25,426 nt of DNA from a virus, in the IMG/VR virus record IMGVR_UViG_3300034407_001302, positions 1-25,426 of that record. One strand, written 5' to 3'. Position 1 is the first letter of the stretch. Each line of letters starts with the position of its first letter. The notes beneath the pieces are model-generated. The model was not told the DNA's origin and did not search any database. It saw nothing but the letters and a program-made list of their open reading frames with translations. The position numbers were made by a program, and so were the translations under genes. Shown here one piece after another: positions 8,049 through 13,378 of this stretch.

Positions 8049-8394
8049 TATCAAATCCTTCCACTATATCATCTTCTATTAATGTAGGTTGGTCTGCTTG
8101 TCCTAAATATTGTTTACCTAAAAAGATTAACATAGGAACTGAACCATCATTTTTATACTTAATTTTACCTGTTTCTTTATCTTTGTATGGTGTTCCTAAT
8201 GCTCTCTTCCATTGTGCTTGTCTAAGTCTTATTTTTCCTGCTTGTCTTCCTTTTGTTAAATATTCCGAATAACTCTTTTCTAAAAGGTCAGAACTGCAAC
8301 CAAATACAGAAGCAATTTCTATATTTGTACAACCAAAACTTGCTAGTTTTTCTACTTGTTCTACATCTATGTTATATTTTTTAGGTCTAGCCAT
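8014..8394 (-). CDS. terS: Small terminase subunit-like DNA-binding protein
   Basis: A 126-aa protein starting MARPKKYNIDVEQVEKLAS. Residues 10-40 form a helix-turn-helix (ASFGCTNIEIASVFGCSSDL), followed by a helical region (GRQAGKIRLRQAQWKRALGT) and a lysine-rich linker. This Lys-rich HTH layout directly upstream of terL is typical of small terminases, which recognise the packaging site. The C-terminal tail is acidic. SD GAGG precedes the ATG, which overlaps the ParB-like gene by 8 nt. Confidence 0.8.
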   Translation of the reverse strand: MARPKKYNIDVEQVEKLASFGCTNIEIASVFGCSSDLLEKSYSEYLTKGRQAGKIRLRQAQWKRALGTPYKDKETGKIKYKNDGSVPMLIFLGKQYLGQADQPTLIEDDIVEGFDIEVISSVPTSE

Positions 8395-9004
8395 TTAATG
8401 CCTCTGCTAATGCATATTCAAATGCTTTTCCATCTGTTTCATATCCACCAATTTCTTTAACTTTATCTTTCCACTTTAACCACATATCATACGTTGCTTG
8501 TGGAACTACTAATTTTATACTCTTTAAATCTTCTTCATCATATACAGGCTCTCCTTCATCTTCCCAATCAAAGTCTAGCATATTTTCAAGGTTTTCCATT
8601 TCTTCTACTGTATCAGGCATAAATTCTGCTAGTTCTTCTATAGAAAATTCTGTTAATACTTCATTTTTAAATAAGTCTGCATAGATTGTTAAATCATCAT
8701 CAAACCATTTATGATTTCTTCTTCTTGCTATTGTTATTGCTTTTGCTTTACTTATTTCTCCAAAGTTTTCACAAGGAACTTTTTTATACTTCATTCGTAT
8801 AAGTGCTTCAAGCCTATGATTACCATCAATTACTTCAAATTTATCTCCAACCTCTCTAACTGCTAACACTCCTACTGAATTATCTTGTTTAATACTATTA
8901 ATTAACTTTTCTATTTGTTCATCAGTACCATCTGTTTTATAGTTCCAATCTGCTTTGATTAAATCTTTTATATTCATTTTCACTAACTGTGTTTTTAATG
9001 CCAT
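8387..9004 (-). CDS. ParB/Srx-fold protein beside dpdA
   Basis: A 205-aa protein with a ParB/sulfiredoxin-fold N-terminal domain: LVKMNIKDLIKADWNYKTDG, SIKQDNSVGVLAVREV and the signature FEVIDGNHRLEALIRMKYKK (about 56-75), followed by AKAITIARRRNHKWFDDD. ParB-fold domains bind or hydrolyse nucleotides and some are nucleases. In bacterial Dpd systems DpdB, a DndB-like protein with a ParB-type domain, works with DpdA to insert the modified base; this gene overlaps dpdA by 10 nt, so a DpdB-like helper role is attractive inference. The alternative is a packaging-linked ParB nuclease, since terminase genes follow directly. The acidic middle part (DFDWEDEGEPVYDEEDL) resembles phage methyltransferase-linked ParB proteins. 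SD AGAGGA supports the ATG. Confidence 0.8.
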   Translation of the reverse strand: MALKTQLVKMNIKDLIKADWNYKTDGTDEQIEKLINSIKQDNSVGVLAVREVGDKFEVIDGNHRLEALIRMKYKKVPCENFGEISKAKAITIARRRNHKWFDDDLTIYADLFKNEVLTEFSIEELAEFMPDTVEEMENLENMLDFDWEDEGEPVYDEEDLKSIKLVVPQATYDMWLKWKDKVKEIGGYETDGKAFEYALAEALNG

Positions 9005-9858
9005 ACTATTCCTCTCTTATTCCATAAATTTGTATAATAATCTTGCATTTGTTTATATGCTTTTATTGCTAATTGCATTGTATATATTCTTGTTACTTTT
9101 TTATCTTCTCCACGCAAAATATTCAAATTCATACTTTTAGGTTTTTTTAAAAAGTGTTTTTCTTTGTTATAACTTAAACAAGTAAGTTTACCTTTATCAA
9201 AATATGGTATTGTTCCATACATTTGTGGTTGTAACCAACTTGCACTATCTACTGAGTAAAAAGGATAATTTTTTAATACTTCTATTTTTGTCATAGCAAA
9301 TCCATGAACTTTTATGCCTTGTTTATAGGCAGGTTTTAGATATTTATTATAATTTAATCTTGTCCTACCTTTTCTATCTCCTTCTAATGCTACATATCCA
9401 CTTTGAGTTTGTTTTAACATTTCTAAGTAATCTTTCCAATTACAACATCTTGGGTGGTAAACAGTTACACACTTATCAAATATATTATTATCTATAAGTT
9501 GTTGCCTCCATTGATTTACTTTTTTTTGTCCAACTATTTCACCTATGTCTAATTCTGCATAATAGTCATAATATTTATAGTTTTGAACTAACCATTTTAA
9601 ATAGTCAGCCATATACTCATCAGGTGTTCCTTTTGTTTTATTTTTCTTTTGTTTATTATTTGCACTAACAATACTTTCGTGTTCTGCAAAAAAACTATGC
9701 GCACCACTATCAATAAATACTAAATTATGATTTTTTTTAGCATTTTTAATACATTTTTTACCTGACCTTATATAGTAATAAGAATAAAAAGCATTTTTAA
9801 TATCACTTGCTACTAATTGTGGTCCTCCTTGCTCTACTCCTGCTAGATATATTTTGAT
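8995..9858 (-). CDS. dpdA: DpdA-like DNA transglycosylase with non-canonical start
   Basis: A 287-aa TGT-related protein that exchanges guanine for a 7-deazaguanine base in DNA. Reading the frame upstream of the first ATG (9612) adds 82 codons that carry essential motifs: MKIYLAGVEQGG at the N-terminus and FIDSGAHSFF at about 48-57, matching the TGT DSGGF motif (D50). Further motifs are YYAELDIGEIVG (D104), VYHPRCCNW, GYVALEGD, and VHGFAMTK followed by YPFYSVDSASW (D204, likely nucleophile). Between the upstream in-frame TGA and 9612 there is no ATG, GTG or TTG. The best start is ATC at 9858, 6 nt after AAGGAG; ATT at 9864 abuts the SD. It overlaps the glycosyltransferase gene by 16 nt. Family assignment is strong; the exact start codon is inference. 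Confidence 0.85.
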   Translation of the reverse strand: MKIYLAGVEQGGPQLVASDIKNAFYSYYYIRSGKKCIKNAKKNHNLVFIDSGAHSFFAEHESIVSANNKQKKNKTKGTPDEYMADYLKWLVQNYKYYDYYAELDIGEIVGQKKVNQWRQQLIDNNIFDKCVTVYHPRCCNWKDYLEMLKQTQSGYVALEGDRKGRTRLNYNKYLKPAYKQGIKVHGFAMTKIEVLKNYPFYSVDSASWLQPQMYGTIPYFDKGKLTCLSYNKEKHFLKKPKSMNLNILRGEDKKVTRIYTMQLAIKAYKQMQDYYTNLWNKRGIVWH

Positions 9859-10793
9859 TTCAATCTCCTTGCAGTATGTTCAAAGTTTATTACATCATAA
9901 GGTGTTGGTTTTATATAATTTTCTATATAAGAATGTATCATTTCTACTAATCCCGGTAATGTTTCATATCTATATGCAGTATTAATAGTTTCTTGGTAAC
10001 TCAATCTATTAGGACTTAAAGGAATACAACCTAAATTCATACTTTCTAACATTGCAATACCAAATGTTTCTTGTTGTGCAAAACTCAACGATATTTTTGC
10101 TCTTGATAATAAATTATAATATTCATCTTTACTTTTGCATTTTTCGGCTGTTTTTACCCACTTTATCTTGTTTGGATATTTATTATTATATAATTTTTTT
10201 ACATAGTCAAACATATCAGGTTGCTTTTCAGGAGCGAGTCTATGTGGAAATACAATTATATCTTCTTTCTTTTTTGGTTTATGATTATCTAAAAATATAG
10301 GAAATTTATCAACTGTTATGTGCTTAAATGGAAACACTTTTTGTATTAATTTTTTGTGATATTTTGTTGCAACTATTATTTCATCTGCTACCATACCCAT
10401 ACTAAATTCTAAACCTCTACACCATTTGTGTAATTCTTTTTTATACAAAAAATCATTTTTATCCCACGTTCCTGCGTGTAAATAACCTACTATTTTAAAT
10501 TTCATATCAAGACAATCTCTTATGTATGCAACATTAGTTACAATAGGATTCCATAAATCTAAAAATAACAAAGTATCATTATTAGTTATTTTACCTTCTT
10601 TAATCATATCACATATTTCAATGCCTTGTTGTAATTTAAATTTATTAGTACCTATTACATCAAGAAACTCTCCATCATATATTTCTTGTATTTCTTCACT
10701 ACCAATAACACCATCAACATAATTTTTCCAATCATCTAACCATTGTTTACTATATCTTTTATTGATTGGTTCTATATGTACTAAATATATCAT
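9843..10793 (-). CDS. GT-B (GT4-like) glycosyltransferase in the modification cluster
   Basis: A 316-aa protein. The C-terminal half has a GT4-type nucleotide-sugar site: IIVFPHRLAPEKQPDMFDYV at about 180-199, YYNLLSRAKISLSFAQQETF then GIAMLESMNLGCIPLSPNRL at about 227-266 (an E-x7-E-like pattern), and SYQE. The N-terminal half has VGYLHAGTWDKNDF and DEIIVATKYHKKLI, as in the acceptor domain of GT-B enzymes. It is soluble. It lies inside the deazaguanine gene train, overlapping dpdA and the 139-aa gene, so glycosylation of phage DNA or of a modified base is a natural hypothesis. Modifying virion protein or host surface is the alternative. Confidence 0.8.
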   Translation of the reverse strand: MIYLVHIEPINKRYSKQWLDDWKNYVDGVIGSEEIQEIYDGEFLDVIGTNKFKLQQGIEICDMIKEGKITNNDTLLFLDLWNPIVTNVAYIRDCLDMKFKIVGYLHAGTWDKNDFLYKKELHKWCRGLEFSMGMVADEIIVATKYHKKLIQKVFPFKHITVDKFPIFLDNHKPKKKEDIIVFPHRLAPEKQPDMFDYVKKLYNNKYPNKIKWVKTAEKCKSKDEYYNLLSRAKISLSFAQQETFGIAMLESMNLGCIPLSPNRLSYQETINTAYRYETLPGLVEMIHSYIENYIKPTPYDVINFEHTARRLKSKYI

Positions 10794-11209
10794 TCGTTAT
10801 TTCTATCATATTTGTAGTTATCAGGTTGAATTTCCATCAAGTGGCATTTAGTTATTTGATATACACGATACCAATCATCATCTAATGATACAGTATCAGT
10901 ATCTTTTAATTTTCTTACATTGTCATCTTGTATTCTATATATAATATGAACTCGATTATATATTCCTATTGGTATTTTGTTATATGTTTGTTTATCTGCT
11001 TCAATAGTTATGTATTGTTTTGTGTCTATTAAGTTGTATAATGTATCAAATGAACTTTCTTTTATACAACTTCGTATATATTCTATTGTGAAATATATAT
11101 GCGGATATTCTTTGTAATTTTTGGGTATTGTTTTTCTTACAAATACAGTTTCAACATCTGATAATCTACCTTCTACTTCTTTTCCATACCAATAACCTTT
11201 GTTATACAT
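10790..11209 (-). CDS. Conserved-looking phage protein, 139 aa, unknown
   Basis: Starts with MYNKGYWYGKEVEGRLSDVE if the ATG at 11209 is used; GGAG lies 9 nt upstream and the start overlaps the previous stop by 8 nt. In-frame ATGs further up give a few extra residues without better SDs. It is a mixed alpha/beta soluble protein with VFVRKTIPKNYKEYPHIYFT near residue 23-42 and WYRVYQITKCHLMEIQPDNY near the end. I do not recognise an enzyme motif. Its position between the QueD-like gene and the glycosyltransferase suggests a part in making or attaching the modified base. Confidence 0.6.
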   Translation of the reverse strand: MYNKGYWYGKEVEGRLSDVETVFVRKTIPKNYKEYPHIYFTIEYIRSCIKESSFDTLYNLIDTKQYITIEADKQTYNKIPIGIYNRVHIIYRIQDDNVRKLKDTDTVSLDDDWYRVYQITKCHLMEIQPDNYKYDRNNE

Positions 11210-11546
11210 ACACTTCTGCTCCATTCTCATTATCTTCAAATACTGAACAATATTCTAAATCAAAAAATTCTAATAACTCTGTTGCAAGCATTTCACAACT
11301 TCTATGTTCAAAGAAATGTATTCTCATCTCCTCATCATAATAATTGAACTTTAAATAATCAATTACGTCTTTTTTAAAAGTTATAAATTCAACATCTCTA
11401 TCATTATGTAAAACTCTTTTTTTGCATTTTATGTAAAACATATGCCTGTGCATATATTTTAAGTATCGTGCTTCACCTTTAGCTTTTCTCCATTGGTGTA
11501 ATCCTTCTACTTGTAGTTTTACTACTATATTTACTGTCTTGTTAAT
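11202..11546 (-). CDS. Small QueD/PTPS-like (T-fold) protein with AUU or AUA start
   Basis: The first in-frame ATG (11453) would give 83 aa, but 31 further codons upstream are open and encode VKLQVEGLHQWRKAKGEARY then LKYM, which runs into HRHMFYIKCKKRVLHNDRDV. The whole pattern (VEGxHxW, then HRH-hydrophobic, DRDVEF, SCEMLATELLEFF, VFEDNENGAEV) resembles a small phage protein family I recall, and the QueD/PTPS T-fold layout (H-x-H, D-x-EF, pTxExxA, V-x-E). No ATG, GTG or TTG exists between the upstream TGA and 11453. ATT at 11546 has GAGAGGA 8-9 nt upstream and gives 114 aa; ATA at 11528 is the other option. It lies between folE and a hypothetical gene. A role on 7-carboxy-7-deazaguanine is inference. 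Confidence 0.7.
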   Translation of the reverse strand: MNKTVNIVVKLQVEGLHQWRKAKGEARYLKYMHRHMFYIKCKKRVLHNDRDVEFITFKKDVIDYLKFNYYDEEMRIHFFEHRSCEMLATELLEFFDLEYCSVFEDNENGAEVYV

Positions 11547-12361
11547 GCTAAAAATTCCTCTCTTGCTATCATATCATCTTTCATTGCACCCATCAAACAA
11601 CTTGTAGTCATTTCTCCACGTTTTTTTACACCTCGCATTTCTTGACATAAATGTCTACCTCTTGCTATAACACCAATACCTTTTGGTTTTAGTTTTGACC
11701 ACAAATAATTAGCAATATTATTTGTAAAATATTCTTGTGTATTTAACATTTTAGAATAATACTCTACTGTTCTTGGTAATTTAGATATACCAATAATATT
11801 TTTATCAGGTATGTAACCAATATCAACTGTACCAAAGAATGGTATCATATGATGTTCACAAAACGTGTAAAACGTGATTCCTTTTTCTAAAATCATTTGG
11901 TCATAACCTTGTGCATCAAATACTGTTGGATTAAATTCAGGAGGTGTAGTTAATTCTTTCCAAGCTTTTGCTACTCTTTTAGGTGTATCAATTAATCCTT
12001 CTCTTGTTGGGTCTTCTCCTATACGTTCTAATACTCTAACTATATCACTTTCAAAACCTCTATCAAAACTATTCTCCCAAGGAAAGACTATCCAAGGTAA
12101 ATTAGGTTCAATTCTTTTGTCATACAAAAATCTCATTTCTTTTTTGTATTTTTTGTATTTGTTAGCAGTGTCGCCACTATCGTATATATCATCTATTATA
12201 ACATCACAATCTTCTATGTTATTAACAGCTCTACCTGTTAAACCTGCTATAACTTGTCCACCTCTTGGTATTCCATAATACTTAACATTAGGGTTGTGGT
12301 CTTTTGTTATTTCATGTAATCTTTTATATATTTCTTCCCATGTTACATTTTGAGATTTCAT
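11531..12361 (-). CDS. folE: Phosphoribosyltransferase-like domain fused to GTP cyclohydrolase I
   Basis: A 276-aa fusion. The C-terminal part (about 100-276) is FolE: RIGEDPTREGLIDTPKRVAK, the zinc motif FCEHHMIPFFG (C168, H170) and ARGRHLCQEMRG (C239). It converts GTP to dihydroneopterin triphosphate, the first step of 7-deazaguanine synthesis. Residues 25-75 look like a small type I PRTase domain: YYGIPRGGQVIAGL and CDVIIDDIYDSGDTANKY, the PRPP-binding loop. I start at the ATG at 12361, which overlaps the queE stop (ATGA) and has GGAG 6 nt upstream; an ATG at 12373 lies in-frame without SD. The PRTase part may salvage guanine to feed GTP; that is inference. Confidence 0.88.
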   Translation of the reverse strand: MKSQNVTWEEIYKRLHEITKDHNPNVKYYGIPRGGQVIAGLTGRAVNNIEDCDVIIDDIYDSGDTANKYKKYKKEMRFLYDKRIEPNLPWIVFPWENSFDRGFESDIVRVLERIGEDPTREGLIDTPKRVAKAWKELTTPPEFNPTVFDAQGYDQMILEKGITFYTFCEHHMIPFFGTVDIGYIPDKNIIGISKLPRTVEYYSKMLNTQEYFTNNIANYLWSKLKPKGIGVIARGRHLCQEMRGVKKRGEMTTSCLMGAMKDDMIAREEFLALTRQ

Positions 12362-12990
12362 AGAATACTCCATAATTTATGTTGCTGAACACTTAACTTC
12401 CATAAAGGATTGTCTAAACACATCTGTATACAATGTTCTAAATTTTCATTATTTATATTTTGTCCATCAAAATGTGGACTTATATAATAATTTTCAGACT
12501 GTATTTTTGTTTGTGGTATTTCTTGTCCTTTATGTCTAACCCATCTTAATTCGTTACAGTGTATATCTCCATCTAAAACATTCCATTTTTTTAAAATAAC
12601 ATGTTCTGCTACTTTTGGAGAAAGTACAACCCAATCACATAAAGGAGGTTGTTTTATTCCTGAACATTCAATAGCATTTTTATAGCCAAGATGTTTATAG
12701 TAATCTAATATTTCTTGATTAAGTTGGTCTGTTGGTTCTCCTCCTGTCCATACAATCCATTTACAATTATATTGCGATATATATTTATGTAAATCATTTA
12801 ATAACCATTCTTTACCACTTGTAAATTCTGTGTCGCATCTAACACCTGATTTATAACAAGCATTTTGTGCTGAACAACCTTGGAGTCTTATAAATATACT
12901 TGGGTGGCCTGCTCTATAACCTTCGCCTTGTAGTGAATAAAATATTTCACTAATCTTTAACGTATATTGCGGAGTTTTTACTGTGTTCAT
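12358..12990 (-). CDS. queE: QueE-like 7-carboxy-7-deazaguanine synthase (radical SAM)
   Basis: A 210-aa protein with the QueE order of motifs: EIFYSLQGEGYRAGHPSIFI at 15-34, the iron-sulfur segment RLQGCSAQNACYKSGVRCDT at 35-54, WTGGEP at 81-86 and a C-terminal LSPK motif with SVQQHKLW near the end. It would turn 6-carboxytetrahydropterin into 7-carboxy-7-deazaguanine. The cysteines are spaced C-x5-C-x6-C (39, 45, 52) instead of the usual CxxxCxxC, though RCDTEF is retained. It overlaps queD by 41 nt and has only a weak SD, so coupling to queD is likely. Confidence 0.88.
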   Translation of the reverse strand: MNTVKTPQYTLKISEIFYSLQGEGYRAGHPSIFIRLQGCSAQNACYKSGVRCDTEFTSGKEWLLNDLHKYISQYNCKWIVWTGGEPTDQLNQEILDYYKHLGYKNAIECSGIKQPPLCDWVVLSPKVAEHVILKKWNVLDGDIHCNELRWVRHKGQEIPQTKIQSENYYISPHFDGQNINNENLEHCIQMCLDNPLWKLSVQQHKLWSIL

Positions 12991-13378
12991 ATACTTCTAC
13001 TTTCTCAACTTTTATATTTTCAGGTGTATTCTCGTTTATAATTTTATAACAAAATTCTGCAAACTTTTCAATACCAACACCTTCTTCAAATATTCTTAAT
13101 TGAATAATGTTATAATAATCTAATCTTTTAAATGTTTCTAATTCAGGGTCGTCTTTGGCAATACATGTTTTGTGGTCAAAATAATCTTGTAGGATACTTT
13201 TTATTTTTTTGAATCCTCCAAAATCAAAAACCCAATTACGTTCATCTAATCCTGTTTTACTTCTTAACCATACTTTACAATACAATTCATATCCATGTAA
13301 GTATTTACAATGTGAATCTGCTTTCCATTGTCTAAAACATGTACTGCCTAGTTCTATTATCTTAGTACTCTCGTTCAT
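12950..13378 (-). CDS. queD: QueD-like 6-carboxytetrahydropterin synthase
   Basis: A 142-aa T-fold protein. Visible motifs are CFRQWKADSHCKYLHGYELY at 14-33 (H23, C24, H28), LDERNWVFDFGGFKKIK at 44-60, YFDHKTCIAKDDP at 66-78 (the Asp-His pair of the active site) and a C-terminal VEVYEHSKNSA. HGY replaces the usual HGH, so one zinc ligand may differ; SHC-x3-LHGY is a variant I recall in phage homologues. It makes 6-carboxytetrahydropterin from dihydroneopterin triphosphate. It starts inside the 3' end of the HNH gene without a clear SD, implying coupled translation. Confidence 0.87.
   Translation of the reverse strand: MNESTKIIELGSTCFRQWKADSHCKYLHGYELYCKVWLRSKTGLDERNWVFDFGGFKKIKSILQDYFDHKTCIAKDDPELETFKRLDYYNIIQLRIFEEGVGIEKFAEFCYKIINENTPENIKVEKVEVYEHSKNSAIYVKD

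Follow-up and report, generated by a model that had tools for sequence, protein, structure and literature searches.

The 25,426-bp window analysed here is the whole of IMG/VR virus record IMGVR_UViG_3300034407_001302, itself a fragment (G+C 28.6%), and carries a minus-strand gene cluster between a RusA/HNH pair and ParB-TerS-TerL. The probable role of this cluster is to supply phage DNA with a 7-deazaguanine base along a side branch that departs from the classical route at 7-carboxy-7-deazaguanine (CDG), with p110, a small protein of unassigned function, in the place of QueC and with DpdA carrying out insertion. FolE, QueD and QueE would yield CDG, which p110 would take instead of QueC (the enzyme that converts CDG to preQ0) and relieve of its carboxylate to give 7-deazaguanine. 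DpdA would swap guanine in DNA for this product, a phosphoribosyltransferase (PRT) domain on FolE would return the released guanine towards GTP, and a GT4-type glycosyltransferase (GT), with a 139-residue protein (p139), would act later on the same base. The proposal draws on the identities of the genes, the fold and conserved residues of p110, the repeated exchange of p110 and QueC, and the nested distribution of the GT and p139, and it would account for a 7-deazaguanine DNA base made without QueC. The cluster is a variant of known 7-deazaguanine DNA modification, what is new here being the linkage of the GT to p110 and of p139 to both.

FolE, QueD, QueE and DpdA are all located where an earlier, sequence-only reading of the window had placed them, and matches from Pfam, PHROGs and NCBIfam agree. 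They comprise a phage-type QueD (6-carboxytetrahydropterin synthase; 12950..13378; Pfam PTPS, E = 4.5e-18; phrog_2389, 2.5e-36), the radical-SAM CDG synthase QueE (12358..12990; phrog_2076, 1e-21; NCBIfam TIGR04508, 5.7e-30; corroborated by alignment), a PRT-FolE fusion (11531..12373; FolE Pfam, 1.2e-57) with the PRT domain at residues 1-106 and GTP cyclohydrolase I at residues 108-279, and the DNA-guanine transglycosylase DpdA (8995..9858; phrog_887 ‘queuine tRNA-ribosyltransferase’, 8.2e-22; likewise corroborated by alignment). That reading had also remarked on a missing QueC and, indeed, the QueC family PF06508 has no match across the 25,426-bp record, itself a fragment, and phages bearing p110 are as a rule without QueC. 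The absence of QueC looks real, not an artefact of the fragment.

The principal evidence that p110 stands in for QueC is that the two are mutually exclusive. Profiles of both were run on six-frame translations of all loci, which were fetched with flanks of up to 10 kb. With duplicates of the QueC fetches excluded, 241 loci were obtained, of which 144 contain p110, 65 contain QueC, 32 contain neither and none contains both. The scan with FolE gave 68 viral loci (38 p110, 16 QueC, 14 neither, 0 both; Fisher p=1e-7), and the scan with QueE, whose loci were chosen regardless of p110 or QueC, gave 13 with p110, 49 with QueC, 18 with neither and 0 with both (p=6.5e-7). QueC is likewise missing from all 80 loci of the p110 scan. 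DpdA used as bait in viral_contigs returned no confirmed loci. Since locus counts are not independent, whole-record and phylogenetic tests were added. A full QueC is missing from all 43 long p110 records, which include the genomes of 11 named phages (54-469 kb; 11/11 without it), and the p110 family phrog_17812 is found in none of 33 QueC records (positive control, 7/7). In four of the 43 long p110 records, PF06508 gives matches that are weak and partial (16-33 bits, compared with 165-239 bits for full QueC genes).

A FolE tree with 142 rows shows 18 changes of the p110/QueC label, no fewer than 11 of them on supported (starred) branches; among independent pairs, about 10.5 of 11 have QueC moving against p110 and none have the two moving together (median p=0.001). 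The tree is a quick one (LG+G4, SH-aLRT only) in which single placements are rough. A lineage effect alone was rejected as the source of the exclusivity because 11 or more of the exchanges fall on supported branches. Repeated exchange without co-occurrence matches the prediction of functional replacement at the same step, and p110 most likely replaces QueC at the CDG step, a reading that the genomic comparisons support well. The resulting genomic rule is that CDG genes in a phage are accompanied by QueC or by p110 but not by both, with a few phages having neither. A queC lying outside the fragment, or a QueC supplied by the host, would leave the phage with ordinary preQ0 or a base derived from it, and such a cause might be sought in a record that is only a 25.4-kb fragment. 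Host participation has been discussed for these pathways, and a queC-less metagenomic phage with an incomplete genome has been listed (PMC6884629). Full-length QueC is nevertheless found in 0 of the 144 p110 loci and in 0 of the 11 named p110 genomes, which makes this explanation very improbable, and a queC elsewhere in the genome of the window phage is itself unlikely, even though the record is a fragment.

The exchange is most clearly displayed by the nearest relatives of the window phage, which share the gene order QueD-QueE-FolE-[slot]-DpdA-ParB-TerS-TerL. In the nearest of these (L001), whose FolE is 79% identical to that of the window, QueC fills the slot (folE-queC-dpdA-parB), while p110 occupies it in L002-L004, the order in L003 and L004 being folE-p110-dpdA-parB. 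The window presents folE-p110-p139-GT-dpdA-parB, and the slot of L016, where QueE precedes QueD, holds p110 and the GT. The edge of the swapped slot is marked by a ParB-like gene (8387..9004 in the window; phrog_620, 9.2e-13; supported by synteny) that is conserved beside dpdA in close relatives. A megablast search of the window against phages gave no match. A cluster that served host tRNA queuosine or folate supply instead of DNA modification might be imagined, as FolE is common to folate synthesis (PMC6884629); the presence of a phage-type DpdA in the operon, both in the window and in the close relatives L001-L004, L006 and L016, renders this hardly credible.

One member of the same phage group, L006, possesses QueD, QueE, FolE and DpdA with neither QueC (throughout its 20-kb record) nor p110 (in its locus). 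Such an arrangement would suit the insertion by DpdA of CDG itself, giving 2'-deoxy-7-carboxy-7-deazaguanosine (dCDG) in DNA, with p110 as an accessory, for example one that carries CDG or pairs with QueD or QueE. Direct use of CDG was allowed for the QueC-less Mycobacterium phage Bipper (Hutinet et al. 2019; PMC6884629). An accessory protein, however, would not be expected to swap with QueC at least 11 times without ever co-occurring with it, nor would one be expected to conserve the full metal-type and ligand-type site found in p110, and we regard this explanation as improbable. The folE-dpdA slot of L006 holds a Vsr-type mismatch endonuclease (L006:6786-7226; Pfam, 5.7e-16).

The p110 gene of the window (11202..11534; phrog_17812, 7.6e-19) has no Pfam family, and all 27 of the members first aligned match phrog_17812. 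This family has more than 590 IMG/VR matches, and searches of Pfam, PHROGs, NCBIfam and PADLOC assigned it no function. An AlphaFold2 model built with 49 sequences (predicted local distance difference test score, pLDDT, of 95.1) reveals a T-fold that Foldseek matches best to E. coli QueD (probability 1.00, E = 3.6e-5, TM-score 0.72-0.74). VIA-align superposes 103 residues of p110 on QueD with Z 12.2 and a root-mean-square deviation (rmsd) of 2.2, compared with Z of about 8 for aldolases and about 7 for uricase or FolE. Invariant among the 49 sequences are H13, L25, H29, V41, R46, E49, S79, C80, E81, E100 and D101, with R30, H31 and F33 nearly so. By motif position, we take His13, His29 and His31 to be the metal site of the PTPS family, and the S-C-E and E-D motifs to be its ligand-binding glutamates. 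p110 shares with E. coli QueD (4ntk, 3qna) the fold, the three-His site and the SxE and E/D ligand-type residues, but, as judged by motif spacing, the catalytic Cys of QueD (CxxxHGH, four residues before HxH) is replaced in p110 by the invariant Leu25, and no conserved Asp-His pair is present in the 49-sequence alignment. An ordinary duplication of QueD was rejected as an origin of p110, as the protein is without the Cys of QueD and a full QueD is encoded in the same operon. p110 reads instead as a protein that binds a pterin or deazapurine and would have been recruited for a different reaction, with one of the pathway's products as its substrate.

As the enzyme displaced by p110 is the one that consumes CDG, CDG would be the natural substrate of p110, and decarboxylation, which needs no cofactor, is an attractive reaction. 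Our best guess is that p110 is a candidate CDG decarboxylase that provides 7-deazaguanine for DpdA. The sequence-only reading had left the choice between insertion of CDG itself and of a decarboxylated form; the latter now appears likelier, with processing of CDG by p110 favoured, and the former less likely. The DNA of the window phage is predicted probably to carry plain 7-deazaguanine, possibly bearing a sugar, and not the nitrile or amine forms. Cui et al. (2023) reportedly detected both 2'-deoxy-7-deazaguanosine (dDG) and dCDG in phage DNA and predicted a CDG decarboxylase, named DpdL. We presume from the likeness of their proposed roles that p110 is probably DpdL or a member of its family. 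The role proposed for DpdL, which would act on CDG in phages with a dDG route, and the absence of QueC suit p110, which does occur in CDG-making phages without QueC at the level of loci, whole records and the tree. Linkage to a GT and to p139 is not known as part of DpdL.

The sequence-only reading did not mention the GT (9843..10793; Pfam Glycos_transf_1, 2.7e-07), a GT4-type enzyme of the GT-B fold that is associated with p110. It occurs in 91 of the 144 p110 loci and in none of the 65 QueC loci, and p139 (10790..11209) is found in 24 loci, each of which (24/24) also has p110 and the GT. The result is a nested series of 65 loci with QueC only, 53 with p110 only, 67 with p110 and the GT, and 24 with p110, the GT and p139. 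GT matches without p110 occur in three loci, two of them cut at a contig edge and one a short fragment. Among 50,697 phage records, all 16 GT homologues that cover at least 80% of the query from Acidovorax phage ACP17 belong to p110 phages, and four weaker homologues (25% identity over 72% of the ACP17 query) belong to phages without p110. The R-x4-K and E-x7-E motifs of the GT4 donor site are retained in an alignment of 90 homologues (R186, 98%; K191, 98%; E251, 100%), the second Glu of E-x7-E being present in the window sequence and below the 85% listing limit across the homologues. A tree of p110 shows no fewer than 14 gains or losses of the GT, and the active-site residues of p110 are alike in loci with and without it. 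Such constancy suggests that p110 probably makes one product, to which the GT adds a further step.

The nesting of the GT and p139 on p110 predicts a further, perhaps glycosylated, base. We tentatively propose, as a possibility well short of an expectation, that some of these phages contain glycosylated 7-deazaguanine in their DNA, the base being made by p110 and inserted by DpdA, with the GT and p139 adding a sugar before or after insertion. Such a base would be a purine counterpart of the glucosylated hydroxymethylcytosine of T4, and we know of no report of a sugar-bearing purine in DNA. The nested pattern of QueC, p110, p110 with GT, and p110 with both GT and p139 would then predict the kind of base present in each phage. 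As for p139, which the sequence-only reading had put forward with the QueD-like gene as a processor of CDG or of the modified base, the proposal is supported for p110, and for p139 the support is its conserved linkage to p110 and the GT in 24 of 24 loci. Its AlphaFold2 model (pLDDT 92) has no convincing fold match (best Foldseek E 0.26). In the VIA-align ranking, fourth place goes to E. coli QueE (112 aligned residues, Z 5.2, rmsd 4.0), and a degenerate QueE is not claimed, given the Foldseek result and a probability of 1.6% from hhalign against QueE.

Several points weigh against p110 as a CDG decarboxylase in the place of QueC. The window is a fragment, as are most loci, and genes lying farther off can escape scans of flanks within 10 kb on either side; in two named p110 genomes PF06508 has weak partial matches (32.8 and 16.2 bits), which are read as other ATP pyrophosphatases; the literature searched documents no T-fold decarboxylase acting on CDG; and the link to the GT fits simple decarboxylation badly, as plain 7-deazaguanine offers no obvious oxygen or hydroxyl group. 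The last of these could be met if p110 altered CDG in some other way, for example by an oxidative decarboxylation that needs no cofactor and leaves a hydroxyl, or by activating or carrying the carboxylate, so that the GT, helped by p139, would place a sugar on that handle and phages with p110 only would carry the unsugared form. The restriction of the GT to p110 loci (91/144 versus 0/65 for QueC) and of p139 to loci with both, the placement of all 16 well-covered homologues in p110 phages, the conserved donor-site residues, and an active site in p110 that is equal with or without the GT, so that one product would serve both, are all in keeping with such chemistry. The 53 p110 loci without a GT imply, however, that p110 is useful alone, and its T-fold match is QueD, not uricase (Z about 7); we consider this alternative unlikely, and simple decarboxylation of CDG by p110 remains the preferred reaction.

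The PRT domain at the N-terminus of FolE also went unmentioned in the sequence-only reading. Its profile matches 1vdm (1.2e-14) and the E. coli xanthine-guanine phosphoribosyltransferase (XGPRT) 1a95 (8.3e-11), and it carries the conserved motifs PRGG, DDxxDSG and WIVFPWEN. As base exchange of the DpdA type releases guanine, salvage of guanine to GMP and then to the GTP used by FolE is a reasonable role, and the fused domain probably recycles guanine released by DpdA. In other phages the PRT domain is separate or absent. A free-standing phosphoribosyltransferase adjoins folE in Flavobacterium phage immuto, and an annotated XGPRT lies within the cluster of Synechococcus phage BUCT-ZZ01.

Known phage clusters use QueC or Gat-QueC, and the QueC-less Bipper and 7AX_2 were noted and left unexplained (PMC6884629). 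The window resembles the preQ0/dG+ pathway of phages 9g, CAjan and Rosebush (PMC6884629) in its clustered FolE, QueD, QueE and DpdA and in base exchange by DpdA, but differs in having p110 in the slot of QueC, an added GT and p139, and a FolE fused to a guanine-type PRT. Bipper (PMC6884629) likewise has FolE, QueD, QueE and DpdA without QueC, its DpdA matching that of the window at 24% over 90%, but its record contains no match to p110 by tblastn with three p110 queries. Cellulophaga phage phi38:2 (QueC, QueF) and Flavobacterium phage immuto (QueF, formyltransferase) offer comparisons for a preQ1-type branch, and neither is among the p110 matches. Cultivated phages that do carry p110 include phiST (Cellulophaga), ACP17 (Acidovorax) and PA5oct (Pseudomonas), as well as phi13:1, X1 and Phosso, among others.

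Two genes of the cluster are longer than first called. The dpdA frame exceeds its 205-residue open reading frame, being open to about 9858, and the added part holds a conserved DSG motif; the motifs are DSG at D50 and VDS at D204, and D50, D104 and D204 are invariant in the DpdA alignment. The start of dpdA is probably an ATC at 9858, with AAGGAG located 6 nt upstream. The p110 frame encodes about 110 residues, compared with 83 as called, and reaches back without a stop codon into the end of folE. Its first standard start (11453) was rejected because it would remove an invariant histidine, and the true start is predicted to be a non-standard codon upstream of 11453. Neither dpdA (9843-9612) nor p110 (11534-11453) has an ATG, GTG or TTG at the conserved start, where L003 and L004 have ATG; either rare start codons or errors in the assembly would explain this. 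The QueD of the window keeps C24 and D68-H69 in alignment, and FRQ and HGY replace its canonical AAH and HGH motifs, from which the metal site of the phage QueD may differ from the canonical one.

Elsewhere among the p110 loci, Cellulophaga phage phiST (L083:12218-12697) and Chryseobacterium phage MA9V-3 (L084:12252-12722) have, after p110, genes for a small P-loop protein and a DpdA-like protein, in that order. The small gene after p110 in phiST was considered as p139 and rejected, its product being a P-loop AAA_18 protein by a match tested in phiST. Six further loci (L094, L095, L097, L105, L125 and L134) contain p110 without FolE, QueD or QueE in the fetched flanks, and several of these are among the closest matches to the p110 of the window.

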